Positions 6,010 to 51,495 of a stretch of DNA of 64,000 bases are shown in pieces. Within the stretch, counting starts at the first letter, position 1; every line of letters begins with the position of its first letter. The notes below the pieces were generated by a model. It saw nothing but the letters and a program-made list of their open reading frames with translations, searched no databases and was not told the DNA's origin. The position numbers and the translations under genes are program-made. The DNA is taken from positions 293,056,256 through 293,120,255 of the forward strand of contig NC_085138.1 in NCBI RefSeq assembly GCF_035046485.1, in the 5' to 3' direction. This DNA comes from Aedes albopictus. Taxonomy: Eukaryota > Arthropoda > Insecta > Diptera > Culicidae.

Positions 6010-6853
6010 ATTGATCGTTGTAGTCGGCGAGATCTGTCCAGAAAAAAGACCACGGTAGTCCGGACGTTTGTAAATTTAATCACTTGGAAAGGTACTCTTG
6101 CGTGCCTTGAATTATCAAAAAACGTTAACCGGAACAGTCTCGAGCGCCGTCCGCGCTATTCGTGATCCAAATCGCCGAAATAGTTCCAGGGCGTCGAGGT
6201 GTCTGGTAGGAATCGTCCTCAAAAGCGAATGGAAATCCGTGGATGATTGTTGGTTGGTGGCGAAGCCTTCCTCAAAATGGCGTGAGGGCTGAACGAAATC
6301 TCCTTTTCAGTTCGGTACGGCGTCAGAAATGGTCCGTAAAATCCACAAAAAGCCGTAGGGGGCCTTACCAGATGTACACCAGCACGTAGAGTCCCGAAAC
6401 GGCTGGGTTAGTGGCCAGATGTAACAGTCGGAGTGACGTAACAAGGGCCAGTGATGATCCAACTAACATTTAATCATCAGGTCGTCGGTTGCTTGAAGAG
6501 ATGGCGCCGTGGGGGCTGGCAGTAATGGCGCAATTTGCCCGCGCGATGCACGTGGCTCGTAGGGGTAGTTAGCGGGGTGTCCAGAATGCCAGGAATGACC
6601 AAAAGTGCATGGAATGGAAGAAACAAGCGATCTAAAGGGTACCTGTGAAACCCTGGGAAGAAAATCGGACAGGTAATTACCTTGCGCCCGATAAATCGAG
6701 CCTTGAATCAAATTCAATTTGCAGCAACACGAACAGCGTCCCCGTTGTCGTCTCAGGGATGGTGAATGTAATGGCGCGACCACAGCGGTGGATTGTTCTA
6801 GACCACGCAATGGCGGGTGCCAAAGGAACCTTCTAGAACGTTTTCCGACCGAG
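6010..6853 (-). other. BEL 5' untranslated leader
   Basis: About 840 bases between the primer-binding site and the gag start. No long frame on the minus strand. It is GC-rich compared with flanking DNA and presumably carries packaging signals, though none can be named from sequence alone. Confidence 0.6.
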
Positions 6854-6877: not shown

Positions 6878-7437
6878 TGGTTGTTCTTACCACAAAAAAA
6901 AACGGGTGATTTCCTACGTTGTGTCCTTTTTTTAGCGTTTCCACCCACAGGACGACGTTGACGACTGGCAATTAGGTAGCAGCACACAGGTAAGTCACTT
7001 TTATTAATTTTCTTCCTTTTTACAGGTTCCACAGGACAAGATGACGGCGAGCACCACAGACACGGACGAAACCACGAAGAAGAGCTTCCTCAACAGGCCA
7101 CAAAACTCAACCTATTACTTATTTCCTATGCACTTTATTTTCCACAGACAGTACAACAAATTTTGTTCGGAACATCTATCTTCTTTATTCTTTCTAGTTA
7201 TACTTCTGCTCTTCAAGCAAACCCAAACAGTACTGACCTATCCCAATCACTTTCGCTTTCTACAGACCGAGCTGATCCCTCAGTGGTCTGCTAGTGGGAA
7301 ACCATATACATGGAGCCCACAAGATTTCCATGATCGGCAACGCTCGGGTGCAGTGTTGTCAGAAATACGATAATAAAGTAGCGCAACACGAACCGGTTAA
7401 CCCGGGAGCTGTGGCGCAACTCTGCTATGATAGAACA
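6878..7437 (-). repeat. BEL 5' LTR
   Basis: A 560-bp LTR reading TG...CA on the minus strand (starts TGTTCTATC at 7437, ends ACAACCA at 6878). Bases 6907-7437 match 1-531. The flank to the right (TCAAC) would be half of a 5-bp target duplication whose partner lies outside the window. Confidence 0.88.
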
Positions 7438-7594
7438 TCAACATTGTATAAACAAAACTGAAAAGGGAATTGTAATAACGCATACAGCGTTAAGAGAGTT
7501 CATAGATCTTCATCACTGCGAGTAGAGAACAACAGAACAGTCTGAACATTCAGGTTTCTGAAGTCAGTTTCACTTAATAAGTGTTAACTGAGTA

Positions 7595-9769: not shown

Positions 9770-10845
9770 TTAAGTGCCAGACGTCAGGTTTTTCCAGCCG
9801 GATCGTTCAGCAGACCGAAGAGCTTTCTGGTAGGCCTTGCGAGCCGACCTGAAAGCCTCCGATTCAGCTGAACGTCGTCTGTTCCAACTCTTTCTACATT
9901 GTTTCCTGAACTTCGCCAGATCAGAGTTCCACCAAGGGGTTCCTCTTGTGGTCTTCATAGACCGCAAAGGGCAAGCTTCTTCAAAAGCTTCCATGATGAA
10001 GGCCGTTGTAGTATCATCGGCATCATCTAAATCACTTGGAGTGTCAATTGATGGTGAATACCCATGAAATTTGGCTGCAACCAAATCGGTAAAGAGATCC
10101 CAGTTGGTTGACCGGGGGTTCCTGAAACGCAAAGTTTGCGAAGTAACATTCACATGTTCAAACAAGATGTAGCGATGGTCAGATAAAGATTCTTCATCTG
10201 ACACATGCCAATTGGTCAACTCGTGACTAATTCTACTAGAGCAAAGCGTTATGTCTAACACTTCCTCTCTAGCAGATACCATGAAGGTTGGGCGGTTGCC
10301 TATGTTAAGTAATCCAAGATCTGTACTACTTAAGTATTCCATCAAACTGGAGCCTCTCAAATTGATGTCTGAGCTGCACCAGATCATATGGTGAGCATTA
10401 GCATCACTACCAACAATTAGCGGAAGGCCTTTTGAAGTGCAGTATGCAATGACTTGCTTGAAAGCATCCGTAGGGGATGGTTCATCATGCAGTAAGTAAA
10501 CCGAACAATAAACGTATTTCCTGTTGAGGTTTCCAACAGATACATCGATTGTGATAGCACATACATCTCTAGTAGTTAGTTCAGAGATGAGTGTAGCAAC
10601 GATTGCGTTGTTGACAACCACACATGCTCGAGGCATGACACGTGAGTTTGCCATTTCATTTTTACTGAAAGTAGGAAACACCGGATTCACAAGGATTCCT
10701 AGATAGAAATTCCCCTTACGAAAGTACGGTTCTTAGACTAACGCCACTTGGGCTGTACCATTTTGCATAAGTCTACAAAGATTTATCGTTGCTGTTCTTT
10801 TATGCTGAAGATTGATCTGAGCTATCCTAACCGTAGCCACTACCC
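9770..10845 (-). pseudogene. LINE apurinic-type endonuclease domain, with nonsense codon
   Basis: The long part (10690-9770) has IVGSDANAHHMIWC, LDITLCSS and SDHRYI, which are endonuclease/exonuclease/phosphatase motifs. Upstream in the same frame the domain start is readable to about 10845 (RIAQINLQHKRTATINL, then EPYFRKGN), but a TAA stands where EP is normally preceded by Q. The INLQH and QEPY pair is characteristic of the Loa/R1-like endonucleases. It would nick target DNA in an intact element. Confidence 0.85.
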
Positions 10846-14683: not shown

Positions 14684-14759
14684 CAGTAACAAATTTTGAA
14701 AACGACGTATAATCAATGGTGTAGCATTGATTACACGTCGTTTTCAAAATTTGTTACTG
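14684..14759. repeat. Long hairpin inside the hAT element
   Basis: 14684-14718 is complementary to 14725-14759 with one mismatch over 35 bp, around a six-base loop GTGTAG. Confidence 0.9.
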
Positions 14760-15383
14760 AAAGGAGGCATTTTCGATAAATTTCAAATAAAATTTATTGC
14801 GCTATCTTTGGGGCCATTAATGCAAAAGCTCCAAATAGAATTTCTTGCGGAATCATTGATGAAACCTATAGAGTTGCTAAGCGATTACCAAGTTTCTTTT
14901 TTTGTGGAACTTGAGCATAAACATTTCTAACGCGACTTCGAGAGGTGTTTCTGGCGTACGCGCAAAATAATTGTTAAGAACTCCTTGTGAAACTTCAAGA
15001 GGCAAAAAATCCATAGGGGTATTTTAGCGGAAATTCAACTAAAAGCTGCTGAAGAAGTTTCATCGGAAATCCATAATGAGTTCCTGATGGAATTTCTGTT
15101 TTATTTTGAATAGAATTATAAGTAAAATTTTCGACTCTCTATCCCATAGAGTTTAAGATTTCATCCAGAATTCAGGTAAAGATGATCATTCCGAACCATA
15201 AAAATCTTAACAACTTTCAGAAGAAGTTTGAAATTTTATAAAAAGGCAGATATCTGCTTCTTTCTAATTTGAAGCAAAATATTTCAGACACATCTTGATA
15301 GTAGAAGTACTTGTGATAAAAATTAAAACAGGATGTATCTAGCACTACTTTTTTTCCGATTCCCATTTGAAGTTAGGGTGCTA

Positions 15384-15573
15384 TTACACTCTTTGCCCAG
15401 ACGCCAAATATTTGACCATTTTTGACAGATAAATTTTGGCAGGTTGTTTTGGCTCTGTTTGCCCCTATTCGTTTTTCGAGAGTGACAAATATTTTTGTTT
15501 GCCAGGTACACCTTGGTCAAAATTTAACTGTCAAAAGTGGTCAAATATTTGGCATTGGTCAAAGAGTGTCATA
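15384..15573. mobile_element. MITE nested in the hAT element
   Basis: Inverted ends share CACTCTTTG, then GCCAAATATTTGACCA and TTTTGACAG (right end reversed). CTA on both sides (15381-15383, 15574-15576) may be the target duplication. Boundaries are approximate because the outermost bases do not pair. Confidence 0.65.
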
Positions 15574-26129: not shown

Positions 26130-27110
26130 TTCCGGAACGGTACCCCAGGAAGGGACCAGATATGAAAATGCATCAAACCTATGCATGCGACACATCAAAC
26201 CACGGCATTTTCGATAACCTGATGAGCGGTAAGCAGAAAAATAGTCTAGGACCATATCTGAACCGGTAGTGTTCCGGAACCGGTTCCGGGTGTCCCGCCG
26301 GAAGTGGCAAATATCAAAGTGAACCAAACCCATGCATGAGACACATCAAACCACGGCATTTTCGATAACCTGATGAGCGGTAAGCAGGAAAATAGTCTCA
26401 GACCATATCTGAATCGGTAGTGTTCCCGAACCGGTTCTGGGCGTCCCGCTGGAAGTAGCCAAATATACAATTGTACCAAACCCGTGCAAGCGACACATCA
26501 AACCACGGCATTTTAGATGACCTGATGGACAATGAGCAGGAAAATCATCTCAGACCATATCTGAACCGGTAGTGTCCCGGAACCGGTTCTAGGCGTTCCA
26601 CTGGAAGTGGTCATAAATACAATTGAACCAAACCCATGCATGCGACACATCAAACCACGGCATTTTCGATGACCTGGTGGACAATGAGCAGGAAAACCAT
26701 CTCAGACCATATCTGAACCGGTAGTGTTCCGGAACCGATTCTAGTCGTCCCGCTAGAAGTGGCCAAATATACAATTGAACCAAACCCATGCATGCGGCAC
26801 ATCAAACCACGGCATTTTCGATGACCTGATGGATAATGAGCAGGAAAATCATCTCAGACCATATATGAACCGGTAGTGTTCCGGAACCGGTTCTAGGCGT
26901 CCCGCTGGAAGTGGCCAAACATACAATTGAACCAAACTCATACATGCGACACATCAAACCACGGCATTTTCGATGACCTGATAGACAATGAGCAGGAAAA
27001 CCATCTCAGACCATATATGAACCAGTAGTGTTCCGGAACCCGTTCCAGGGTTCCCGCCGAAGTGGTTAAATCTGAAAAAGAAACAAACCCGTACATGCGT
27101 CACATCAAAT
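26130..27110. repeat. 152-bp tandem repeat array
   Basis: The motif CACATCAAACCACGGCATTT starts at 26191, 26342, 26494, 26646, 26798, 26950 and, degenerate, 27101, giving periods of 151-152 bp. Each unit also holds GAACCGGTAGTGTTCCGGAA. The short minus-strand frames here are repeat by-products. Confidence 0.95.
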
Positions 27111-28380
27111 AGCGGCTTTTTATATTACCTAATGAACGGCCAGCAAGTGTTTCGGAATCGGTTTTGAGTGGCCGGAAGAGGCCAAATGTAAAAGTAAACC
27201 AAAGCCAGGCATGTGACACATCAAATCGTGTCTTTTGCGATAACCTGATGAACAGTTAGCTAGAAAACAGCCTTACGTCTCACTAAAGACAAACGGTAGT
27301 GTTCCGGAATTGGTTCTGAGAGTCCCATCAAAATCCTTCAATTTGCAGCGTTTTTGGTTAACCGATGAGCAGTTGACAAGACAATAATGTTAGGCCATAT
27401 TTGGTTCAGCCGGTAGTTACCCGGAATCAGATACGGGTAGTAAAATGTAAAACTTAACCAAACCCATGGATGCGGTACATCAAATCACGACCAGTCTTGT
27501 AAACATTCGACACTTTTCACTACCTTCATTTCGTTGCCGCAGTCGGGTGTCAGTCGGCTTTGTTACATTCGTGCGCTATCGTTACCTCTTACCTACACAC
27601 AACACGAGCAGTAGAACGAAGATCAATAAACATAAGAAAGGGTCAAATCAATGTCATCTGACACGATGACATGTGTCTTTACGCATAGATTTTCAGCCAA
27701 TTCCGATTATGAATGTTAATATTAGTTTATTATTGCATGTTGCATTGAATACGACACACATATGGGCAACATAGCTCTTATTATGGAAGAAGAGAGGAAT
27801 AACAAAAGCCGAACCGTCTCCCGAAGCCGCTATCGTGGTGAAGTGCATTCGTTTGACATTTTTGTTTCGATCAGTAGTTTGATTGCTTGTGTTGCGAATG
27901 TCGGAGACAAAGGAGGCCGAATATCGACGAAAAGGTTCAAATGACTGTGATCTCTAACAAGACTAATCACGACTTATCGACAACCTGATGGAAAAATAGG
28001 GTCAGACCACATTAGATTTCCGGTAGTGTTGCGGGTTCAGTTGTGGCTTCGAAAGTGGTTAGAAGTAAAAGTGAAGCATTCATGCGATATATCAAATCGC
28101 GGTGATTAGGTAAAGGTGAATAAATAGCAATAAAATATTCTCAGACCATAATTGGGACAACCGGTAGTGTCATGGTCCATGACTCATGGAATCAGATCCG
28201 GCTATCCCACTGGAAATTACCAAATATAAAAATGAACCAAACCCATTCATACGACACATCAGATCGCAGATTTTTTGATAATCTAATGAACAGTTATCAA
28301 GAAAATAGCCTTAGATCACATTAGAGACTAGCTGTTGTGTAGCAGAACCAACGTTCATGTGAAAAAATAAATAGTGGCTT
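27111..28380. repeat. Diverged continuation of the 152-bp array
   Basis: Degraded units with deletions continue (CACATCAAAT at 27217, TACATCAAATCACG at about 27477, ATATCAAATCGCGG at about 28088, CACATCAGATCGCAG at about 28255). They are interrupted by a dispersed repeat at 27487-27975. Confidence 0.75.
27487..27975 (+). repeat. Dispersed repeat, copy 1
   Basis: From AACATTCGACACTTTTC to GTGATCTCTAAC this matches the reverse complement of 39952-40425. Both copies hold a short frame of about 60 codons, but nearly all differences between them change amino acids, so no protein constraint is evident. Confidence 0.85.
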
Positions 28381-28680
28381 TGTTTAATGGCCTGATAAAC
28401 ATTAGGTATGAACAACAGTGACGAATAGGTCTAAGTTCTCATTATATGCGAACAAAATATAGACAAAACTAAAGCGATCTCATCAAATCGTACCATTTCA
28501 GATTCCTAAGGTGTAAATTTATAGCAGGATGGGTCAACGTTGAATGGAAAAATAAGAATTTGATCGCGTCTAAAGGAGATGGTGGCTGTTTTAATGAATT
28601 TTGAGCTCTAAAACTACGTAAAACAAGTGTATTTGGTATGGGAAATATGTTCGGAGTCCACCAGAGTATCCAAGATAGCG

Positions 28681-28708
28681 CACAGTGGCCGGAAGCCGGA
28701 CAAAACCT
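28681..28708 (+). other. RSS-like left terminus, 12-nt spacer
   Basis: Heptamer CACAGTG (28681-28687), spacer GCCGGAAGCCGG (28688-28699, 12 nt), nonamer-like ACAAAACCT (28700-28708). The nonamer matches the vertebrate consensus ACAAAAACC at seven of nine positions. Confidence 0.8.
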
Positions 28709-30817
28709 CAAAAATCGACTTCAATATTTTATTTTTCTAATATTTTTCTTCCATTATAGATACTTTAACTAAGAAAACCCCAAATTTTCAAGAGATTTTG
28801 TCGAAAATTGAGTCTTGTAGATTTTTTCAAAGTTGAAGTTTTATGTCCTACAATATTAGTATTTATTGTCTTTATTTTATGAGCTTCCTTCAAGAGTTCG
28901 ATGTAAAAGTTAGGAAGACTTGAATAATGTGACAATATTTTTTATGTTTTTGGGTATGAATAACCATTACATTTCAGGGATTGTTTGCAATTCAATCACA
29001 AAATTATTATGTTTTTACAATATGCAAACATATTGACTTTTATGAAATTTTGAAGAAAAACTTCGTATTAAAGAGATCCAGTACTTGTTTAGGAAACATC
29101 AGAAAATGACGCCGTATCCCGAATCTGACGTGCAATTTTGTCTAGTTTTTGGCTATATAGGCCACTGTTTGCGCATTTTTGCGCTAAGCGCGGAATTTTT
29201 TTTTTTATTTATCAGGTCACAATGGAGCCGCATGGTTGTGGAGGAAGTGATATTGTTTGAAGTTTAAATTTTATCTTAACATAGTTCAAATTGACTTCAG
29301 AATACTATCAATTTAGTGTAATTTTCATTCTTGTAAGAGACTTTCACCAAGTCAGAAGAGGGGGGGGGGGCTTGTCTGATAATGTAATAATGTAATGGTC
29401 ACAGCTTTAACATTTTTTTTATTATTTTTTTTTAATATTATTTTATTTTTTGACAGAAAAACACAAAAAGGTGGGTGCTCCAGTTTAAAACAGTAACCTG
29501 GAGAGGAAAGGAGTGATGACTAAGTATGAATAAACCTTTATTTTCTTTGACACTACCCACATGTTGCTTCACCAGGTACAACTAACTCTTTACCACCTTC
29601 AAAATAAAAAAAAGACAAAAACAACCGTAAAACATGTAAAAATAACTACAAACCATTGCTCATTGATTTTCTTACACTGGTTGTTTCTTCGGTTCTTTTT
29701 AATCGTTAGAATTGCCCAACAACCTTGGAAGCAATCTTTTCACGAACTTCTATCGAAGTTTTAATATATAGTGACACAAATTCGTCGACATCTACGTGTT
29801 TCTTTTCTACACGCACATTGCTACAGTTCAAAGCAACAATCATCTAAAAAAATATATAAAAGGAATTCAGTAAACGGCGTTGAACGCTACGTTAAATATT
29901 TGTCTGCGTAAACGTCGCGATCACCAAGGCAATCTTTGAATATTTTAATCGCAATTTTATGAAACGAACATTTTACGCTCTTTAGTGAAACCCCTTTTAT
30001 TGGTTTTTTAAACTTTAAGTTTTATTATATGTTATTCATGCAGTTTCGTTAAACACATTTCTACTGAACGACACACAGAGTGATAAAGATTTTGAAAACA
30101 TTTGCTGGAACTCTACTGTTCATAAATATGATTATCGATCTCTGATGATCGTTTATCAAAAACTCCCTTCAATATTGCGAATATGAATTGCCAATTCTTG
30201 ATAGATAGGGTTGTTTCGGTTGCTTCGACAAGTGATAGCAGGGATCGATGTACCTTAAACCCCGAACTCGGAAGAGCATATATGAAGTTGTTGAAACGAG
30301 ATTGATAAAAAGCAGTTTTAATTTTACGTAGTTCACTATATTAGACTATCTGACCCCATAACGATTGAATTAACACCTCCGTGCAGCCACCGTAAAATGT
30401 CACGTGGTCTATGGGCAGTCCCTGAGAATAGACCACGTCTTGTCAGCCAACATTAGTGTGTATCTGAATTGATCCATTGAAAGAAAACGTAGATAAACGA
30501 TTTTTTTCCAATGATTTATGTAGTTTTGAAGATTTTGGACCACCCTAACAGCAACAAATACACAATAATAGTTTATTTCATACATAATTTAAGAACCCCC
30601 CAATTTAAAAGCTTAATCAAAACTACGTTCAAAAAGCACATTGTGATAGCTTATTATCGATTATTTTTACATGCTTTCCATAATCAGCAGATTTCAAAAT
30701 TTTGAACCACCCTAATATAGTAAAATCAAAATGTATGATAAGTTCCATATCAGAAATAGATTTAGGGAACTAAAATTATCATAACCTGTGAATTTTAGCA
30801 ATTTCGGTTTACATTTG

Positions 30818-30856
30818 AGGTTTTGTCCGACTTTTGTATGGAGGCCCGCCACTGTG
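30818..30856 (-). other. RSS-like right terminus, 23-nt spacer
   Basis: On the minus strand: CACAGTG (30856-30850), a 23-nt spacer (30849-30827), then ACAAAACCT (30826-30818). Same heptamer and nonamer as the left end, displaced by 11 bp, about one helical turn. Confidence 0.8.
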
Positions 30857-30861
30857 TAGCG

Positions 30862-31300
30862 GTCCAAAGTCCAAGATAATGGCCCAGTATTCAAGTTAGT
30901 GCCTATTTTATAGGATTTTTAATTCTTGCATTATGGGCATATTGTGTATGAAAATATGTCCAGAATTCAAAATTTGTAACCAGAAAACCCAAGCTATGCG
31001 CTGTTTTACAAGGTCTGCAATATGACTATAGTTTGAATGGGGAAGAATGCCGGTCTTCGTCCAAAACTGGTAACCAGAAAATCATAAACGACATGCCAAA
31101 ATTCAATACGGCGACTTTTTTATGTAATTGTAGGTGCAGAGTCCAAAAATGAATACCAGAACATCCAAGATGGTGTCTCAATGTTCAAGATGGCGGTTAG
31201 TTTAGTTGGGGTAGATATCCGGAGTCATAAAATGATGACCGGAAAATCTAAAACGACGTTTCAAAATTTTGCGGCTTTATGACACTTGTTTGGTTTGAGT
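30862..31300. repeat. Degenerate tandem repeat of about 83-94 bp
   Basis: CCAGAAAA or CCGGAAAAT recurs at 30980, 31074, 31156 and 31239, with CCAAGATGG-like text between. A further unit, interrupted by the Transib-like element, is seen at 28651-28680 plus 30862. Confidence 0.75.
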
Positions 31301-33499: not shown

Positions 33500-33815
33500 T
33501 AAAATAGTGTTAGGTTTTGTACTGGAGGGTGCACATTGTGGCACGATTCCCGACCAATTTGTCCGTTTTGCGGAGGGCATGGATATTATTGCTAGAACAT
33601 TTGGAACGGTGGCAGAACTGTACACTCGCCTTAAACGTGAAGCAGAAAAGGTCGGACTCACGGTGAACGCAAAAAGATTCACCCTCGCATCAAATGTACC
33701 ATGTACATGCTGATAAGACCGGTAGCTCTCTGCAGGCACGAGAACAGGACTATATTCGAGGAGGACATGCACGCACTGAAAGTGTTCGACCGCCGGGTAC
33801 CCAACAATTTTTGCT
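33500..33815 (+). pseudogene. RTE-like LINE reverse transcriptase fragment
   Basis: Plus-strand frame reads FVRFAEGMDIIARTFGTV, then LKREAEKVGLTVNAKRF, and in another frame LIRPVALCRHENRTIFEEDM and ALKVFDRR. The catalytic FADD is FAEG and the two parts are out of frame, so it is dead. Same LINE type as at 12310, 40850 and 63600. Confidence 0.8.
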
Positions 33816-34643
33816 TTAAGAAATGTTTCTCAAAGCAACGTTATTAAGCTACAAGTCGTATTATATTTGAATAGTTTTGAAATAAAACTGTTCTTCAACT
33901 CTTGTTTGCCCAATAATGAGAATCTATTCAACGTCAACCGTTTTATACGCACTATGAAATTAATGTTTATCCAATGATCGTACATCCATGGGTTATGAAA
34001 CTCTTGTTCAATGTTAGAACCATCCGCAATTTACACAAACATCAAAAACTTTTCTAAAACGTTTGTAAACAATGTTGTATGACGCTATTTGTTTAATCAT
34101 TTAAGAATGGTTTTAGAAACCATTATTGTGCATTAGCAGCAACAAACTTTCTTCGATATTTATTCCACCGTAATACAATCAAAACATGCTGGGGCCGTGA
34201 TACAACTCACGAAATTTATTTCTATTAATAGATATGGTTTTACAGTTGCTACAAAAACGATTATTAAGCGTTTCTTCAAATATCATTGAGACAATAAAAC
34301 AGCAAATAGTTATTTATGCAACGAGTAGCAAAATGATGATTTCTACAGCACGAGTTGTACATTTATCCAACGAGGCTTGCCAAGTTGGATAAATACGACG
34401 AGTGCTCTAAAAATCGAGTTTTGCAACGAGTTACATACAACATTTTTTGCATTGACAAAAAAATATTCGTTAAAATTTGATCGATGCCTTCAACATCAAG
34501 TTGCTTTGCGATGATTGAATGGGAACGGCCACGTGCTTCATCATGCTAGGCACGAAATTTACATCAAGGAAGCCGTGCAATAACCGTCACAGTTTTGCAA
34601 GTTCGTACTGTGGAAACCAAGCAAAACTCAGGTAGTTGACCAA
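33816..34643. other. AT-rich DNA
   Basis: Contains repeated CAACGAGT motifs near 34318-34430 that look like a small degraded MITE. No boundaries can be fixed. Confidence 0.35.
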
Positions 34644-34707
34644 ACAATTGGATTATGATTCATAATGCAACCGAAATGAGTTGCATTATGAATCATAATG
34701 CAATTGT
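34644..34707. repeat. 64-bp hairpin
   Basis: 34644-34671 pairs with 34680-34707 over 28 bp with one mismatch, around loop CGAAATGA. The stem repeats ATTATGATTCATAATG. It may be a tiny MITE. Confidence 0.9.
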
Positions 34708-35118
34708 TTATTATAATACAGAAAAGTAGGCTGTAGTGATACTGAAACGGCAAGTGTAAAATCAAATTTATAGTTATTTTATTACATTTTATGGGACAAA
34801 TCATATCAATGGAAAGACTCGAACTCTGGACCTTTGGGTTCGCACTCGTCTGCATCCACTCTGCTTCAATCCCAATTACATGAAACGGCAGATTTAAAGC
34901 AGTATATAAATATTCAATCTCTGAGTCGTATACATCACCGTACAGATGCTGCTTAAACATTACTTAAATATTTTATTCAACTAATTGTCTTCATACACAT
35001 TGAAGCTGATCAATGTTTGAATTATTGTAACCGCAACGTTGTGTTGTAAGATTGGTATGGTGAACTTTGTTTTATTTTAACTGCTCTTCCTGTTTTGTGT
35101 CGGGAGGAGAATGTGTGA
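34708..35118. other. AT-rich DNA with a tRNA-like box B
   Basis: On the minus strand near 34806-34850, GAGTTCGAGTC resembles a box B, preceded by a GC-richer head. No coherent tRNA fold; probably SINE debris. Confidence 0.3.
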
Positions 35119-37734: not shown

Positions 37735-38405
37735 TGAATTGTTACTTGGGGTGCTTAGGGCCATCTTTGACGAGGTGTAGGAGAACGGTGTGTTTTTTTT
37801 CTTCTAAACCATAGGGGGATAATCTGCAAACAGACACTCTAACAGGAAGGTTAGGCCCTAACCGTTAGGGTAGTGTGGGGCTGAGGCCGTCTTCTACTAC
37901 AATAGTAAAAGCCATGACTACTCTCTCCTCGACCTAATAAACACATTTCTATGATCGCCAAACCCTGAGTCTCTCCGGAACCACCAAGAAGATATTGCTT
38001 CAGAGAGGGGCTAGTGAATATCGCACCCTTAGCAGGTTAGCTGCGCAGCCTGCAGCAACGAACATCGATGACTCGTTTTGGAGAGTCCATCACGGTAGCA
38101 TACTGTCGCTTAGCTAGTTTCCGGAGTGGTCCTCACCACTCCCTTTGTCCTCGGAAGGCGGGCAAGGTCAACCCTGCCCACGCCCAACTGCTTAGCAGAC
38201 ATCAAGAACTGATGCCCACGTGCAACCCGATCTGACCTGCCCATAAGGAAGGGTATCACTACCCTTCAGGCCCTATCAGATGCACCAGAAGGTTGCAGAT
38301 AGCAAGGTCTCCACCTGCCCTGGCCCTTACCGGGGACCCCTTTCCAACCGCGGGCTCGGGTCCAACCCAGTAGACCGACGCCACACAGTGCTGCGCCCCA
38401 TAGAC
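37735..38405. repeat. GC-rich probable retroelement UTR fragment
   Basis: An abruptly GC-rich block with a sharp return to AT-rich sequence after 38405. No good frame. Its composition resembles LINE leader sequence; family not identified. Confidence 0.3.
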
Positions 38406-39344
38406 AAAATTGAAAAAATTGACTTCAAAATTTTGTTCAATCTAGTATTCCATGCTGTTCATACATGCTTGAAGTATGTTGCTTGACCATTATAAGCTTG
38501 AAGATCGTGTTTATTATACCAAAACAACCTAGATTACCAAACATTATTTTCGTTGTCAATAGAAAAATAATATTTTATAAAAGAAATTCATCTTTGGCCT
38601 AGCTCAACATTATTAAACGTTTAAGTTTTCAATGAAAATCAAAATGAAAGGTCTACAACACATCAGTAGAATCCATTTTTTCGTTTTGTACGGCAACATG
38701 TTTTGATATTTATAAAAATAAAATGTCATAATGTAAGTACTATATGGCGTAGAGGAAAAACGACCCCAAAACTCAAATTGATGAAACAAAAAATTACCTC
38801 AAAAGACCTCTCTGAATTTTTCACCATGTTTTCATTACAGTGTCCGCTTAATACTGAATTCAACTCCAGCTGCTTTTATTTGCTTTATCGAGCTTTTTCC
38901 AAGTGATGTATTTATAGTCAAAATCGAACATATTTTTGATCAAGCGTTCTTTTCTGATCCATACAAACGCAAAATGTATCAGTTTATATTGTTCCCTCGT
39001 TTCCTTATGAAACTGCTGATTTCTATGAAAAATTTGAGGGTAAACTTCAACGATTTTTTCCAGTTTTAAAGCATGCAACTGGACATGAAATGGCCAAAGG
39101 CACGACCTTCAAGAAACAAAATGTTCAGTGAGAATAAAGTTTGGTGAATAAGTCATTCTTGCAATTACCTTTTTTATTATGATCTATATGTTTATACCGT
39201 TGCCTAAACTGCATTCTACAAAAAAAAACTGCAAGATTTGAATAAAGTGGCGTTTAAGACACTTAAGCGATTATGAATTATACATAGTACATTTATGCAA
39301 ATTGTAGCTTTTATCAAGTTTGTCAACTTCACCGAAGACACTAT
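38406..39344. other. AT-rich DNA without recognised features
   Basis: No frame above 75 codons and no visible repeat structure. Confidence 0.5.
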
Positions 39345-39945
39345 TGAGAAAAAATGTATGGTAAGTTAGTTATGATTTTTGTCCTGCAGTTCCATACATT
39401 CGCAGCACTGTGCGCCATGACAGCAATGCTACTGGGACTTCCTCTTTGCGGCCACTTAATCGCTGTAAGGGTCGATCTCAACCGCAGGGCACCGATATGA
39501 CCTACGAAGCCGACTCCGAAACCCTGGACCACCTCTTGTACCGCATCTGAACTAGCCATTCTCCGAGTCTACGGACCACCTCCTCTGTAGCTCCTAGATG
39601 ATATGGGCGATAGCCGTTGAAACGGCGTTCCAACCAAACTCATCCCTACACATCCTCTGGACAAGATTGTCCGGAGTTTTGTCCTCTTCGCATGTGGCAA
39701 GCATACGGTCACGCATTGTGCGAAAGCTCGGGCACACGAACAAAACGTGTTCCGCCGTTTCCTCTAAACCATTGCACACTGGGCATTCGGGAGAATCCGC
39801 ATGACCAAAACGGTGTAGATACTGTCGGAAGCAACCAGGAGCTGTGTCAGGTGGAATGTAACTTCCCCATGGCGCCTATTAATCCAACTATCTACCCTCG
39901 GTATCAACCTATGGGTCCACCTTTCTTAGGAACACGGTGTGTGGC
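39345..39945 (-). pseudogene. R1-like LINE C-terminal zinc-binding region
   Basis: Minus strand: THRLIPRVDSWINRRHGEVT then, after a frameshift near 39840, GCFRQYLHRFGHADSPECPV and CNGLEETAEHVLFVCPSF. This is the conserved tail of R1-type LINE reverse transcriptases with its CxxC...H...C zinc site. The 5' side stops where a dispersed repeat begins at 39952. Confidence 0.85.
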
Positions 39946-40849: not shown

Positions 40850-41640
40850 TGCGTTGAGTAATTATTTATCATCGCCATTGGTTGAGACGGTCGAAAGCTT
40901 TTTCGTAATCAATAAACACCTGGATAAAACGGAGCGTGACAATATGGTCCAGGTCCACACAGGCAAGGATGAGAACACTCACTTGGAAAGAGTTACACTC
41001 ACTTGCAGTTTTCGCAACTCAGAAGCGTGCAATCAAGAAACGATGTATGGACGACTTTTACCTTGTGATTTCGTCTAAAACTTTTCCGAATAGAGTAGGG
41101 GGTCGCACACCCATACCGAAGTCGTGAGAGCTGAGAGAGCTGCAAAGGCAACTCTCCACGAGGTGAATGTAAATTACACTCACCTCGTGGAGAGTCGCTT
41201 TAACAGCTCTGTCACGGCCTTGGGATTCATGTGCAACCCCTACTCTATTCGGCAAAGTTTTAGACGAAATCACAAGGCAAAAGTCGCCCATACATCGATT
41301 CTTGATTGCACGCTTTTGAGCTGAGAAAATAGCAAGTGAGTGTAAATCTTTGCAAGTGACTCTTCCCATCCCTGCACACAGGATCGATCGTCTGGCACGG
41401 AATCCTGCTTGCTGCCATCGGAGAGTTACGTCAATCTTCTCCTATATTCGGTTAAGGATCACTTTGCAGAGGACTTTGAGAACGATACACAGTAACATGA
41501 TGCTCCGCCAACAATCGCATACAGGCAAGTCACCCGTTTTGGGTATCTTTACTTAGACGCCTTGCATCCAATCAGCCGGAAAAGTCACGGTTTCCCATAT
41601 GTTGCAGAATAATTGATTGCAGATACTACTGGGTCAGTTT
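40850..41640 (-). pseudogene. RTE-like LINE RT fragment split by a palindromic MITE
   Basis: Minus strand right of the MITE: ADWMQGV, VKIPKTGDLPVCDCWRSIML, LKVLCKVILNRI, EKIDVTLRWQQAGFRARRS. Left of it: VFIDYEKAFDRLNQ-like text. These are RT motifs 1-3 of the LINE type seen at 12310 and 33500. Stops and shifts make it dead. Confidence 0.8.
40964..41374. mobile_element. 411-bp palindromic hAT-type MITE
   Basis: The whole element folds on itself: the left half pairs with the right half with almost no loop. The centre, ACTCTCCACGAGGTGA against TCACCTCGTGGAGAGT, lies at 41151-41194. Perfect 8-bp duplication CACACAGG (40956-40963, 41375-41382). Confidence 0.93.
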
Positions 41641-43458: not shown

Positions 43459-43600
43459 TGATCGTAAGACAGTCAATATAAAATGTTCAACAAGTATCTT
43501 AGTAAATTTATTCTTAGGCAAAACAAACGCAAACACGCTACGCAACTTCACCATGTTGAACAAAATATACATTTCCGATCATAAGGGTGGCCCATAACTA

Positions 43601-43895
43601 CACAGAAAAAAATATGTAATTAAAATTCAGCGAGAAATCATGCACATAAAGGGAATGCTAGAGTCAGTGCACTTTTACATGAGATATAATGTAAAATTAC
43701 ATTACCATCGTGTAAATTTCCGCCAACCATCGCGTAAACCATCATGGACACCAACCAGTTACGCGACTATTAGCGGAAATTTACACGAACGTAACGTAAT
43801 TTTACATGATATATCGTGTAAATATGCACTTACTCTAGCATTACCTGTATGTGTATGAATTTTCGCTGAATCTTACATGAATATTTTTTTCTGTG
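43601..43895. mobile_element. 295-bp foldback MITE with TA duplication
   Basis: CACAGAAAAAAATATG and the inverted ATATTTTTTTCTGTG ends are flanked by TA (43599-43600, 43896-43897). Arms of about 130 bp pair well and hold ACATGATATATCATGT-like palindromes. The gypsy target duplication begins at the very next base. Confidence 0.88.
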
Positions 43896-43901
43896 TATGT
43901 A

Positions 43902-44293
43902 AGCTAAGTTTTGGGAGTTCGGGTTTGTGTTTTTAAAAAACTAACACTCAAACTTGACTCTAGAACTACTGACAAAACAATGACGCATTCTTTATTCCGT
44001 CTTCCTTATTTATAACCTATCCAGAAAATACTTATCGTTATGTCCTACGCTATCTTACCATTCCCTTACTGGCTCCCTTCGTTGGAAAGTTCCGTTGTCC
44101 CTTCGATGTGGTCCATGGGGTGCCAGCCTGTACTATCATACCGCGTCGTGTTGTCCATGTCGTCGGCTTATCAGGTTCTGCTGTGCAATGGTTCGCCCAT
44201 TGCCTTTATGCTAATCGCGTTCCTCTCGTACCATGCAGAGTCTTCGTTATCGGGTACGTTTGTTGGTCGAGTACGGAAATCCTTTTCGTAACT
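43902..44293 (-). repeat. Gypsy 3' LTR
   Basis: Reads AGTTACG...CTTAGCT on the minus strand, an AGT-type start seen in many errantiviruses. An 83-codon plus-strand frame inside is antisense and duplicated only because the LTR is. Confidence 0.93.
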
Positions 44294-44393: not shown

Positions 44394-45908
44394 TTACTTC
44401 CGCCTTTTCCTTATCGCATTGCGTAGCAGGAAGGCTGCTCCTAAAAAGAAACCAACGAAAAGCAGTCCAATACTCGCGTTCCTTCGGGTTGACTTGATCT
44501 CCTCCATTTCTTCTAGGTTTTTCAGTTGGAACTCGTGTAACCTTTCCAGGGATATCAAGGGTTCCACACTCTCTTGCTTTATCTCTAGTCCATCCAGTGG
44601 AATGATGAACGATGGAGAACTTTGGTGGTGTTCCAGGCTACTGAAAGACTTGTTGTTTATTGAAACAGAGCAGTTGTTGAAAAATATTAGAAATGTTCCC
44701 GACAGCATCCGATCGGACATATGGCAATCTGTCGTAAGGACCGCTGATTTCGCATTCTTAACGGCAATATGATTATCGGTGATTCTCTTAACCGTCGTCT
44801 CGTTAAGAGTTTCTACCATATTACAGTTTCCTGATAATCCATGAAGCAGTTTCGAGTAGCATTTGTCGTCCGAGACGTCCATTAGGTCTTTTGCGTCGCA
44901 GAGTACATTGGCATTGATAGTTTGGCAATTACCTATGACGAAATACGTTGTTCCCGGGCTGGTTATGGCGTGTGTTGCTGGTATCTTCAGTGCTGCTCCG
45001 TTGATGGGGAGTGGTTCCAATAGAAGGTGCTTGTAGATCCTATTCTCAATTTGTGGAATCAAAATAATAAAGTATATTTTGGATTTTTTGTAAAGTGCCT
45101 TGATTCCTAAAAATTCATAAGCCTGATCCGCGCTAAGCAAAGTAATGTTTTGTTCTTGCAATCTATCTGTGACGAATTTTAATTCCTCTGGTTCCAGAAA
45201 GGTTTTAGATATCAAATTGAGGCGGGCTAGTTGGATTGTTTCGAAAACTGTATCTAAATGGGTTTTCAATAGTTCTATATGATGCGAGATTTTAAACACC
45301 TGAGTAAGAGCAGTGAAATTTTGATTTATTCTGTTATGATTCATCATTTCCTCTCTAGCTTTGATTATTTGTTTTGTGATTATTGATTGTTGTTCGTTAA
45401 CCACCCTGATTACCTCGTTTATTCTATTCTGGAGTTGTTTATTTATTTCAATTTGCTGGTTATTTGCCCTGACAAGTTTGTTATTGCCTGCTCTCAAATC
45501 GTTTAAATCATTATTGATTTGGACAAGGTCGTTGTCATCAAGATTGCCAGTAATAAGCTTTATCCCAGATCCAATAATATTAAACAATCCCCTCTTTCCC
45601 CTGTGTTTGGGATAAAGATTATTATATAGGTTAAATACCGTAATGTACCTGTCCTGTAGTAAGTCTGTCACGTCTTTAAAGTTCGGGAAAATTTTTAGTC
45701 CGTTGATGATGGTCTGAATCTTATTAAGTACTGGAGCGTACTTGTCCAAGTCGATCTCATGATAAATCCTATGATGTCCGTCTTTTATCATGCTGCTTCC
45801 TATTTGCATCGATAGGAGTCCAGGATTTTGGGAAAGGTCGTGGATCTGTATGGTTTGGGATAGGCATTGTGGGATGATAAATAGTAGGGATACAGTAAAG
45901 AGCGCCAT
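44394..45908 (-). CDS. env: Envelope-like fusion glycoprotein
   Basis: 504 codons. A hydrophobic signal peptide spans about 1-18. A furin-type site RGKR ends at residue 106 and is followed at once by a Gly/Ile-rich fusion peptide (GLFNIIGSG). A coiled-coil-like stretch with repeated N/Q and heptads follows (about 125-185). Near the C-terminus lies one membrane anchor (about 480-497), ending in a basic tail. Several NxS/T sites are present. This layout is that of errantivirus env and baculovirus F proteins. Like gypsy env it would be expressed from a spliced RNA; the ATG lies about 75 bases after the pol stop. Function in cell entry is inferred by family, not shown. The frame has no breaks. 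Confidence 0.92.
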
Positions 45909-45982
45909 AGTCCTATAGGAGTAGAAAAATAAGCATGTTAGAATTATATAGATGTTGAGAAAAAAAAATGGAGAGACGTGTT

Positions 45983-48900
45983 CTATTTTCTAACGCGGCG
46001 CAAATTGCTTTTATGAAGTTTGCGTCTTGAGTCATCTACATATGTTTGATGACGATCGGTTGCTACTTTCACGTTATCGAACAATTCTCTCGTTTTCTTT
46101 CGTATTCCTTGGCGCTTGTTCTGAACGCTCTGGCCTGGATCTAGAGGAGGTGGATCCTCTCTATTTTTGTTATGCCAGGTAAGTTGTTTTTGTTGGCTTG
46201 CAGTCATGTTTAAAATTACTTCGTCATAGAGACAATCTCTGGCTTCGATAATTTTTTCGATTTCTAATGGTCTTTCCTCGCCATCTTTCAGCCCGATATG
46301 TATCTCCCTTGGCTTCAATTTCGTGGAGGTGTGTATCGCGTCGTTATACATCATGCATGCCAATAAAAACTTCTCTTTCTGGGGTATATTTTCAAATTTG
46401 TGTTGATTACAGCGAAAAATTTCGCTCACTGTTGAATGAAACCTTTCAACCATGCCGTTACTTTGACTATGATTGGCAGGAGTAAAATATTGTTGTACAT
46501 GAAGGTCATTTAGTAGACCTCGCACTTCAATAGATTTGATTGCTGGTTCGTTGTCCGATACCAACAATTTCGGTCGTCCGTGCATACAGAAATATTTTAT
46601 CAGCCCTTTTTTGACATGTGGTATTGATCTTGACTTGATAGGTATAAGTGTTCCGAATCTGGAAAATTTATCTATGAATGATAAAAAGATGTTTGGTTGG
46701 GCAATAAAAATATCCGTATGAACTATTTCCAGTGGGGCATTTGGTAAGGGTGTTTCGCCGTACTTGATTTGGTAGGGCTTCCTCTCATATTTGTTGCGGT
46801 TGCAGATGTCGCACAAGATTACGAAACGCCTTATCTTTCTTTTCATGTTCGGGAAGTAATATCTCCTGACAATCTCGTCGTAGTTTTCTCTAATTCCTCT
46901 GTGAGCGAGCTCGTGTGTTTGCTCGATCATGACATCCTGTTCTTCCTCAGAGGTTAGGTCTGCGAGTTGTTTCTGGGATATGACAACTTTAAAGTTTTTA
47001 TGTCTACTGAAATAATTGCGGTAGACAATCTGAAGAGACTGTATAACTCTTTCTGGGCACATTATACAGTTGACTCTTTTGGGGTTGGTGTAATCCCTTA
47101 AAATTTTTATCAATAATGGTACTCCGAAATTTATTCTAGTGATGACTCGTCGAAATACTCTCGGAAAAATTTCATTGAAGTAGTCTTCGTCCTCACTCCC
47201 AATCTGTAGAATAATTTGATTAGAAAAGAAGTTTACTGGTTGCTCAGTACATTTGATTAAATCAGTAATATCTGAATCTGCAGAATGTACTGATGAAGAG
47301 TCCGATGAGTCTGTTATGTCTTCGTTAATGTTGAGCTCCAAACCTTCTGAAGGTATCCTGGAAAGCGCATCGGCAACAACGTTCTGTTTACCGGGTTTGT
47401 ATATGGGAGTAAAATTAAACTCAGATAATCGAAGCCTCCATTTCACCAGTTTTGAATTTGGAGTCTTCAAATTCAATGCGAATGTTAGAGGTTGATGGTC
47501 TGTATACAAGGTAAATTTCTTTCCGAATAAATAAGGCCTAAAATGCCTGGTAGCCCAATCTATTGCCAAGAGCTCCTTTTCAATTGCTGAGTAATTTTCC
47601 TCGGACTTACTCAGAGTGCGGGAGGCATACGCAACTGGCCTGTCTTTTCCCACAGTACCTTGCGATAACACGGCACCTATTGCAAAGTTGCTCGCGTCTG
47701 TAGTTAAAATGAATGGCGCGGACATATCCGGGTACTGTAGTACATCGCTACTGGTGAGCAAATGCTTGCAAATATCGAATGTTTTTAGGAATTGGGAAGT
47801 GTGTTCAACGTCTTCTCCTTTTCTCAGTTGGGCAGTGAGAGGTTTGGTGATTTTTGCGAAATCTCTGATAAACCTTCGATAGTAACCTAATAGTCCTAGA
47901 AAAGCCTTCAAATCTTTTTGATTTTTAGGGATTGGCCAATTTTCTATAACTCTAATTTTATCCGGGTTAGGTTTTACACCTTTATCCGTCACAATATGAC
48001 CAAGAAAAGCAACTTCTTTTCTCAAAAACTCGCTTTTGTCTAGTTGAATTTTTAAATTTACCTTTTCAAGTGCCTGCAGAACTTTGGAAAGGTTGACTAA
48101 ATGTTCTTGTAGGGAGGCCGAGAATATTATAATGTCATCCATATAGACAAGACAACATTTTCCTATTAGGTCCTTCAAAACATGATCCATTACCCTCTGA
48201 AAGGTAGCAGGGGCATTTTTTAGTCCAAAAGGCATTCGCACGAACTCGTACAGTCCATGATCTACCGAAAATGCGGTCTTTTGTACATCATCTGGATGAA
48301 CTTCTATTTGGTGAAAACCCGAGGCGAGATCCAATGTGGTAAAGTATTGGCAACGCCCAAGTTTATCCAGGATTTCGGTAATGTTCGGTATGGGATACCG
48401 ATCATCGATGGTCTTTAGATTCAGTTTTCTGTAATCTATGACCAACCGCCATTTTTTATTCCCCGAAGCATCCTCCTTTTTTGGAACAATCCAAATTGGA
48501 GATGCCCATGGAGATGTGCTAGGCTTTATGATTCCCTGTTCGAGCATCTTTGATATCTGTCTCTGCACTTCGTCTTTATGACAGAATGGATAACGATAAC
48601 TCTTTGTATAACAGGGTAGGTCATCGGCCGTTCTTATTCGATGTTTAATTACGTTTGTGAAGCTGAGATCAGCTCCTTCTTGGTAAAAAGTGCTCTCATG
48701 TTTATGAAGTATTTTCATCAAACCGGATCTTTCCTCCTGATTGAGGTGATCTAGCCTTAATTGTTCATAGAACTGGGTACCTATTTTCGGCAGTACACTC
48801 GGCGGTACAATTTCCTCGAAGTTGTGTATTTCCAAAGGAATACTTTCAAGGTCTAATGAAACTGTTCGCAATTCCGAATCGGTATTTACCAATGGGAAAA

Positions 48901-49384
48901 CTGCTTGATAATTTTCTGCTCGGTATATTCCGGATGGTATTTTGATTCCTGGGGAAATTTCTACATCTCTATCAATATAGAAATCTCCACTTTCGATGGG
49001 AGTTCTTATGGATTTATTTAAGAACGATTCCTGAAAATTACATTCAGTCATTCTTGGAAACCTTTTCTGCATCTGAATTTTTTGGTTGTTGATAAGAAGG
49101 GAATTCTCCGCTGTATCGATAATAGCTTCCAGGTTACGTAGAGTTTCGTACCCTATAAGTCCATCAAAGAAAGTGTGGAACTGGAAAATATAAAAAAGTT
49201 GTTTTGGCAGAATTTGATTTTTCAAAAGAATTTCGAATGGGTTCCATTCGACATACTCGTTTATATTGAAAATACCATTAATGTTCTTAACTTGGTGAGA
49301 TATAATTTTCCTTCGAAATTTTTGTTCCACAAGACGTGGTGAAATATAGTTCTTGTTTGCACCTGTGTCAATGAGAAGTCGCAC
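45983..49384 (-). CDS. pol: Gypsy pol: protease, RT, RNase H, integrase
   Basis: 1133 codons counted from 49384, where the first triplet is GTG. That is not a true start: the frame is open further upstream past the gag stop to the slippery site at 49465-49471. Domains: protease DTGA (6-9), RT with LDLASGF (351) and YMDD (414-417), RNase H D563/E603/D629/D672, integrase zinc finger H824/H828/C858/C861, core D891/D944/E980. No chromodomain. Made as a Gag-Pol fusion by -1 frameshifting, by inference. Confidence 0.94.
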
Positions 49385-49431
49385 TTTCCCAATAATGGTA
49401 TCAAACTCGAGATATGGTAAAAAGTTATTAT

Positions 49432-50718
49432 CTAGGTTTGTTGACTTGGTTCTGAAGCCATGGAAAAATTTGCTTCTTGTTCTACTGTTTCATAATCTAA
49501 GGTTGAATGTGCGGCTTCTGTACTAGCACACTGATGGGTGCTTTCTTCATTTATGTGACTGTCGTCCTGAACATACTCATGCTGCGCAGGAGGTAAAGGG
49601 TAAGGAGGATAGCCGTAATAATCATAAAATTGCTCATGCATATTTATCGTTGAGCGATTTCTGGGAAAAGGTCTGAACCCGGTTTGAGATCTAGGCTCCT
49701 GTTTTATTGCCATTTGTGTGTTGGAATGATTTGGTGCATTTGGACCAGGTGGAGTAAATCTCTGAAATGGTCGGGAATGCGAAGGGGTGAATGGTCTTTG
49801 TTGAGGCATCTGTGAAAAGTAAGGCGGTCGACTGTGGACCGCAGGGGCGTACGCAAACGGCCTGTTTTGTTGATAGCCTGTATTTGCATTTAGTGGTTTT
49901 GTTTTCGGTGCTTCTTTAATCTGTTTAGAATCCCTTTCCTTTCTCCTACGTATTGCTGCCTCCTGTTCGGATGCAACTCGATAGGCGTCTGTCAATGATT
50001 GTGGGCGTGTGGATCTTGTTAAATCCGACATCGAGTCGTGCAGACCGTCGACGAAGGCGTTTATCATAAGGGTCTCATAGGTACCCATAACTGCCTTTGC
50101 TTCGATTGGTGTGCTATTATTAATCAGTATCTTTGCATTAATCTCCGCTAGGAGAGATTTGCATTCCTGATAAAATTCGAGAACTGATTGGGAACCTTGT
50201 CGCAGGTTCGTCAATCTCGACACAAGAGAGGACAGGTCAGATTTGTCCCCAAAATACTCAATCAATGTTGACTTTATTGCGTTCCACTCTAAAGGAGTGT
50301 AACTGGTGGAAAGAGCGTCATTAGCTTTTTCCGTTATTTTGTCTCGGATTATTCCAAGCCAGATGGGTAGAACCCTATCGTATTCATCGATAGAAACAAA
50401 CTTTTTTGATTCTTCCAGTTTTTGCTCTACTGATTCGATCCACCTAGGTAGATTTTGCGGGTTGCCGTTAAATTCTGGCACCATCCTAATCAAGTCAGGA
50501 ATTCTAGGGCAATTAGCCGGTGCACTAGGCGCTACGGCTAAGGGAGAAACTATGGAAGATGTTTCAGATGCTGTTCTAAGGGCAGCGATCCGTTCTTCCG
50601 CCTCCTGGGTTTTTTGGCTCTGAAGTTTCATAGCTTCTATGAGATCGTCGATTTGTTTCTGCAAATCGTTGATAGACATCGCTCTAGTAGCCATGTTTTG
50701 AAAGAAACACTGTTTCAC
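49432..50718 (-). CDS. gag: Gypsy gag
   Basis: 428 codons. The N-terminal third has a coiled-coil-like segment (INDLQKQIDDLIEAM), then the capsid-type stretch (PEFNGNPQNLPRWIESVEQK, and LVSRLTNLRQGSQSVLEFYQ), an Arg/Lys cluster (RRRKERDSK) and a P/Q-rich tail. No CCHC knuckle, as usual for errantiviruses. The first Met is weak; MATRAM at residue 9 may be the start. It overlaps pol in the -1 frame. Confidence 0.9.
   Translation of the reverse strand: MKQCFFQNMATRAMSINDLQKQIDDLIEAMKLQSQKTQEAEERIAALRTASETSSIVSPLAVAPSAPANCPRIPDLIRMVPEFNGNPQNLPRWIESVEQKLEESKKFVSIDEYDRVLPIWLGIIRDKITEKANDALSTSYTPLEWNAIKSTLIEYFGDKSDLSSLVSRLTNLRQGSQSVLEFYQECKSLLAEINAKILINNSTPIEAKAVMGTYETLMINAFVDGLHDSMSDLTRSTRPQSLTDAYRVASEQEAAIRRRKERDSKQIKEAPKTKPLNANTGYQQNRPFAYAPAVHSRPPYFSQMPQQRPFTPSHSRPFQRFTPPGPNAPNHSNTQMAIKQEPRSQTGFRPFPRNRSTINMHEQFYDYYGYPPYPLPPAQHEYVQDDSHINEESTHQCASTEAAHSTLDYETVEQEANFSMASEPSQQT
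49465..49471 (-). promoter_or_regulatory. -1 ribosomal frameshift site A_AAT_TTT
   Basis: Minus strand in the gag frame reads GCA AAT TTT TCC, a canonical X_XXY_YYZ heptamer about 30 bases before the gag stop. The -1 frame from here runs without a stop into pol. Confidence 0.75.
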
Positions 50719-51083: not shown

Positions 51084-51104
51084 GATCCTACCAAGGCTGC
51101 GCCA
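51084..51104 (-). other. Gypsy primer-binding site
   Basis: Minus strand TGGCGCAGCCTTGGTAGGAT, starting with the last T of the LTR. TGGCGCAG and GGTAGGAT fit the 3' end of a tRNA-Ser except for a small discrepancy between them. The tRNA identity is an inference. Confidence 0.6.
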
Positions 51105-51495
51105 GCTAAGTTTTGGGAGTTCGGGTTTGTGTTTTTAAAAAACTAACACTCAAACTTGACTCTAGAACTACTGACAAAACAATGACGCATTCTTTATTCC
51201 GTCTTCCTTATTTATAACCTATCCAGAAAATACTTATCGTTATGTCCTACGCTATCTTACCATTCCCTTACTGGCTCCCTTCGTTGGAAAGTTCCGTTGT
51301 CCCTTCGATGTGGTCCATGGGGTGCCAGCCTGTACTATCATACCGCGTCGTGTTGTCCATGTCGTCGGCTTATCAGGTTCTGCTGTGCAATGGTTCGCCC
51401 ATTGCCTTTATGCTAATCGCGTTCCTCTCGTACCATGCAGAGTCTTCGTTATCGGGTACGTTTGTTGGTCGAGTACGGAAATCCTTTTCGTAACT
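51104..51495 (-). repeat. Gypsy 5' LTR
   Basis: Matches 43902-44293 base for base as far as I can see. It ends against TGTA of the target duplication. Confidence 0.93.

Follow-up and report, generated by a model that had tools for sequence, protein, structure and literature searches.

A 64,000-nt stretch of the Aedes albopictus genome (assembly GCF_035046485.1, contig NC_085138.1, positions 293,056,256 to 293,120,255; hereafter 'the window') contains two elements, E1 and E2, that are very probably non-autonomous Transib-type DNA transposons, with 5-bp target-site duplications and a transposase encoded elsewhere. All four ends begin with the heptamer CACAGTG, and both elements are flanked by perfect 5-bp duplications. 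A motif with an ACAAAA core follows the left heptamer after 12 nt (E1) or 13 nt (E2) and the right heptamer after 23 nt in both, so that two diverged elements have the same spacer polarity. The arrangement resembles the recombination signal sequences (RSS) of V(D)J recombination. Asymmetric Transib ends bear on the origin of the 12/23 rule; the idea of 12/23 Transib ends is about 20 years old.

A sequence-only reading of this DNA had described E1 as a Transib-like mosquito element that lies between perfect copies of TAGCG and carries CACAGTG at either end, with the motif ACAAAACCT placed 12 nt from the left heptamer and 23 nt from the right one. This description of the ends is correct to the base; three of the five duplicated bases are G or C. 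The 11-bp indel claimed between the two ends was recovered by global alignment of the outermost 32 bp on the left with the outermost 43 bp on the right, where 30/32 positions match and one clean 11-bp gap falls in the spacer. The right end carries a second ACAAAA at spacer 12, partly within the 11-bp insertion, which is a caveat on the 23-nt assignment; we read this spacer as 23 nt, not 12, as the motif sits in a 20-bp block in which the two ends agree at 19/20 positions. We considered and rejected the possibility that an 11-bp unit with ACAAAA had been duplicated in tandem to give the 23-nt spacer (the likeness is weak by eye, and the right end of E2 has no ACAAAA at spacer 12). As an empty-site check, the joined flanks of E1 were compared with the window; a nearby repeat (31155–31191) aligned over 37 bp spanning the junction with 75.7% identity (E 0.38), a match too weak to be given weight.

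E2 was absent from the sequence-only reading and was found by scanning the window for heptamer pairs accompanied by a 5-bp duplication. Its flanking duplication, CGCCA (G or C at 4/5 bases), is perfect, and the outer 12 bp of its two ends are identical. Compared with the RSS nonamer ACAAAAACC, the inner motifs of E1 match imperfectly at 7 and 7 of the 9 positions, and those of E2 at 6 (left) and 8 (right). The joined flanks of E2 matched only themselves in a BLAST search of the window (E up to 1).

The main scan (heptamers with at most one mismatch, 100–6000 bp apart, with a perfect 5-bp duplication) returned exactly two pairs in the 64 kb, E1 and E2, both with spacers of about 12 and 23 nt. 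Allowing one mismatch in the duplication raised the count to six pairs, with ACAAAA at both ends in E1 and E2 only. In two hundred windows simulated with an order-1 model, pairs with a perfect duplication averaged 0.16 per window, those that also had exact heptamers averaged 0.005, and ACAAAA at 12/23 ±1 was seen in no pair. A relaxed scan (heptamers with at most two mismatches plus inverted 12-bp ends) recovered E1 and E2 again and added nothing; the same scan of 400 order-3 simulated windows gave a mean of 0.26 pairs, with a maximum of three per window and ACAAAA at both ends in no pair. Two bare pairs would be only slightly out of the ordinary; what is not chance is the combination of heptamers with duplications and ACAAAA cores.

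A chance resemblance, in which E1 and E2 are unrelated elements or no elements at all, could draw on the abundance of heptamer-like sites in the window (402 left and 386 right with up to two mismatches) and on the imperfect nonamer match. Against perfect 5-bp duplications and inverted repeats at both elements, unique in the window and equalled in no simulated window, we regard it as having a negligible probability. The sequence-only reading had also allowed that the ends mimic a 12/23 pair by chance; this is disfavoured by the second, diverged element, with 13/23 spacers and the same polarity.

There were 10 matches to GGACAAAACCTCAAA with up to three mismatches in the window, where 3.4 were expected; two are the E1 ends, and the other eight all have three mismatches. 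One of the eight, at 33508–33522, belongs to a site at 33540 (−), CACAATG followed by 13 nt and ACAAAACCT. This site was rejected as an element, as no second end flanked by the same duplication was found (the single candidate position, 29814, has a flank with one mismatch and no ACAAAA); it could be the remnant of a degraded or truncated Transib end, or a coincidence. The pattern CACAGTG-N10..25-ACAAAACCTCAAA had no match in a viral contig collection and four in prokaryote contigs (one archaeon and three bacteria, with spacers of 11, 20, 24 and 23 by match length), which we take as chance.

No Pfam transposase domain was found in any of the 12 frames of E1 and E2; the sole matches there, two in number, fell below the threshold and concerned unrelated families. 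In the PDB, the six E1 frames together had a handful of weak hits to unrelated proteins (E 0.15 or higher), none transposase-like. A RAG1-core-like DDE transposase was thus not found in either element by Pfam, nor in the E1 frames by PDB. The longest stop-free stretches are 76 amino acids (aa) in E1 and 94 aa in E2. Both elements are read as non-autonomous because they have no recognizable coding domain. Their insertion would have proceeded by cut and paste with a transposase supplied in trans; judging from known Transib biology, this enzyme, a relative of the RAG1 core, would bind the heptamer and the inner motif, then nick and form hairpins at CAC.

The label Transib-like thus draws its support from the ends and the 5-bp duplications. 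Another superfamily that makes 5-bp duplications and whose ends start with CAC by coincidence could be proposed, as the ends of E1 and E2 are linked to no transposase here. We consider this improbable, since exact CACAGTG followed after 12/13 or 23 nt by an ACAAAA motif, present at 4/4 ends, is the arrangement described for asymmetric Transibs.

The sequence shared by E1 and E2 lies mainly just inside their left ends, where BLAST aligns 35 bp at 80% identity (E 5e-4). Local alignment of the two left ends, over about 46 bp from the ACAAAA core, scored 37, a value equalled by none of 2000 resampled pairs. With the heptamer removed, neither the two right ends (P 0.21) nor the right end of E1 and the left end of E2 (P 0.08) are significantly alike. 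In each element the end with this homology is the one with the shorter spacer, so the spacer polarity is common to both, and this argues for an asymmetry inherited from a putative common ancestor of E1 and E2. No further copy of either family was found within the window.

The function of the asymmetry is a separate matter, to which the high confidence in the identification of E1 and E2 does not extend. The transposase may assemble the two ends into an asymmetric complex similar to the 12RSS/23RSS pairing, which would explain why the difference of one helical turn between them is kept; we hold this explanation tentatively, at slightly under an even chance. A rival to this step, though not to the identification, takes the 11-bp difference for a neutral indel, with a transposase that depends chiefly on the heptamer and the outer block and is indifferent to the spacer; we see it as a serious possibility that is still somewhat short of even. 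It would fit the E2 ends, identical in the outer 12 bp and not significantly alike further in, as well as reports that Transib families are mostly symmetric (PMC8289069) and that recognition in RAG-like invertebrate elements is argued to rest on the outer 15–17 bp, with asymmetry having rather little effect (PMC7204232). It fits less well with E2, which keeps 13/23 spacers and the same polarity despite a different outer spacer sequence, with the 1.4% chance of a 12/23 ±1 pair if spacers are uniform over 5–40 (an arbitrary null), and with the reported recurrence of 12/23 ±1 in published families (PMC8355894). In ProtoRAG the asymmetric 27/31 pair reportedly outperforms symmetric ones, but ProtoRAG has a RAG2-like partner (PMC8289069).

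A stronger proposal is that a mosquito Transib transposase enforces 12/23-like pairing without RAG2, the one-turn difference being kept with fixed polarity across diverged families. If true, 12/23 logic would belong to the lineage of RAG1-core transposases and would predate V(D)J recombination, instead of having been invented by vertebrates or with RAG2. We consider this unlikely, in part because RAG1 without RAG2 reportedly shows no preference for 12/23 over 12/12 (PMC8355894); Transib has no RAG2, and the same report counts in favour of the neutral indel.

Several further observations weigh against a functional 12/23 pair or against the identification itself. The sample is two elements only, and these are not independent observations because they share ancestry at one end. 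Left–left homology is the strongest signal between them but not the sole one, as the left end of E1 and the right end of E2 are weakly alike without the heptamer (score 23, P 0.0045). Past the heptamer, no significant likeness is left between the two E2 ends (score 15, P 0.35), and the E2 spacer lengths are therefore read from the GACAAAA core only; moreover, the left spacer is 13 and the left motif agrees with the RSS nonamer at only 6/9 positions. Transib end spacers are reportedly of various lengths (PMC6941560), and the ends of the active Hztransib are described as symmetric (PMC8289069).

The sequence-only reading had suggested paired-spacer synapsis outside jawed vertebrates. The end structure behind this suggestion is real; such ends had already been described (PMC8355894), and a demand of the Transib transposase for unlike spacers is not deducible from sequence alone. 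E1 and E2 are probably new Transib members with an already published end asymmetry, not its first case outside vertebrates. Their value lies in the polarity common to two elements and in the cleanly matched ends of E1, a natural substrate whose ends (30/32) differ by an 11-bp insertion, so that the effect of the spacer would be nearly unconfounded by sequence. In the literature searched, we found no experiment testing spacer asymmetry for a 12/23 Transib. Coordinates of both elements are listed in the table.

Table. Coordinates of E1, E2 and their ends in the window
Feature	Position	Strand	Remark
Element E1	28681..30856	+	2176 bp, probable non-autonomous Transib-type
E1 left target-site duplication TAGCG	28676..28680	.	
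E1 left heptamer CACAGTG	28681..28687	+	
E1 left spacer, 12 nt	28688..28699	+	
E1 left nonamer-like ACAAAACCT	28700..28708	+	7/9 to RSS consensus
E1 right nonamer-like ACAAAACCT	30818..30826	-	
E1 right spacer, 23 nt	30827..30849	-	holds 11-bp insertion relative to left end
E1 right heptamer CACAGTG	30850..30856	-	
E1 right target-site duplication TAGCG	30857..30861	.	
Element E2	38384..39412	+	1029 bp, same type as E1, coding domain not found
E2 left target-site duplication CGCCA	38379..38383	.	
E2 left end: CACAGTG + 13 nt + ACAAAATTG	38384..38412	+	6/9 to RSS nonamer; homologous to E1 left end
E2 right end: CACAGTG + 23 nt + ACAAAAATC	39374..39412	-	8/9 to RSS nonamer
E2 right target-site duplication CGCCA	39413..39417	.	

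Other repeats also lie in the window. An open reading frame (ORF) for a long interspersed nuclear element (LINE) endonuclease (9773–10732, −) matches Aedes albopictus LOC134291599 with 93% identity over 99%, in agreement with the mosquito origin given to E1 in the sequence-only reading. Direct repeats at 1–532 and 6907–7438, 99.8% alike, bracket an intact 1807-aa Pao/BEL retrotransposon ORF (655–6075, −), and the element between them looks like a recent insertion. Identical 392-bp direct repeats (43902–44293 and 51104–51495) surround an open Gypsy-type pol ORF (45986–49489, −); beside it is a 531-aa ORF (44394–45989, −) that looks envelope-like by position only. Tandem copies of several hundred bp, ∼69–88% alike by BLAST, occupy 26140–27326. 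Two fold-back stretches (40963–41375 and 43599–43897) are long inverted repeats, 80–82% self-complementary. No CAC heptamer starts at the BLAST-given edges of these two or of the inverted repeats at 14684–14759, 34642–34709 and 15382–15573.

Among known systems, the 12RSS/23RSS pairs of V(D)J recombination in jawed vertebrates share with E1 and E2 the CACAGTG heptamer, a nonamer with an ACAAAA core and 12/23 spacing (consensus as given in PMC6620893). They differ in that V(D)J is not a transposon and its signals are recognized by RAG1/RAG2, while the nonamers of E1 and E2 agree at 6–8 of 9 positions. The preference for unlike spacers is reportedly tied to RAG2 (PMC8355894). The amphioxus ProtoRAG is described as having asymmetric ends and 5-bp duplications, as E1 and E2 do; its spacers are 27/31, an RSS-like nonamer was reportedly not identified, and it encodes both RAG1L and RAG2L.

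The Transib transposase is reported to be a relative of the RAG1 core that makes 5-bp duplications as RAG does (PMC7204232), and a GC bias is described at Transib/RAG targets (PMC8289069). Hztransib of Helicoverpa zea resembles E1 and E2 in its heptamer-like ends and 5-bp duplication, and reportedly forms hairpins on the flank (PMC6941560); unlike them, it encodes its transposase, and its ends are reported to have little or no nonamer similarity (PMC8289069).

Asymmetry of the 12/23 kind has been reported for Transib5 of Drosophila melanogaster and for Transib2, TransibN1, N2 and N3 of Anopheles gambiae, with credit to Kapitonov & Jurka 2005; the spacers are given as "almost perfect 12 or 23 +/- 1 bp", and the asymmetry is proposed to work in Transib transposition (all in the 2021 review PMC8355894). 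These families were compared with E1 and E2 by description, and the host here is Aedes, not Anopheles. As described, they have in common with E1 and E2 the RSS-like heptamer and nonamer and the 12/23 (±1) asymmetry, with a mosquito host among them.
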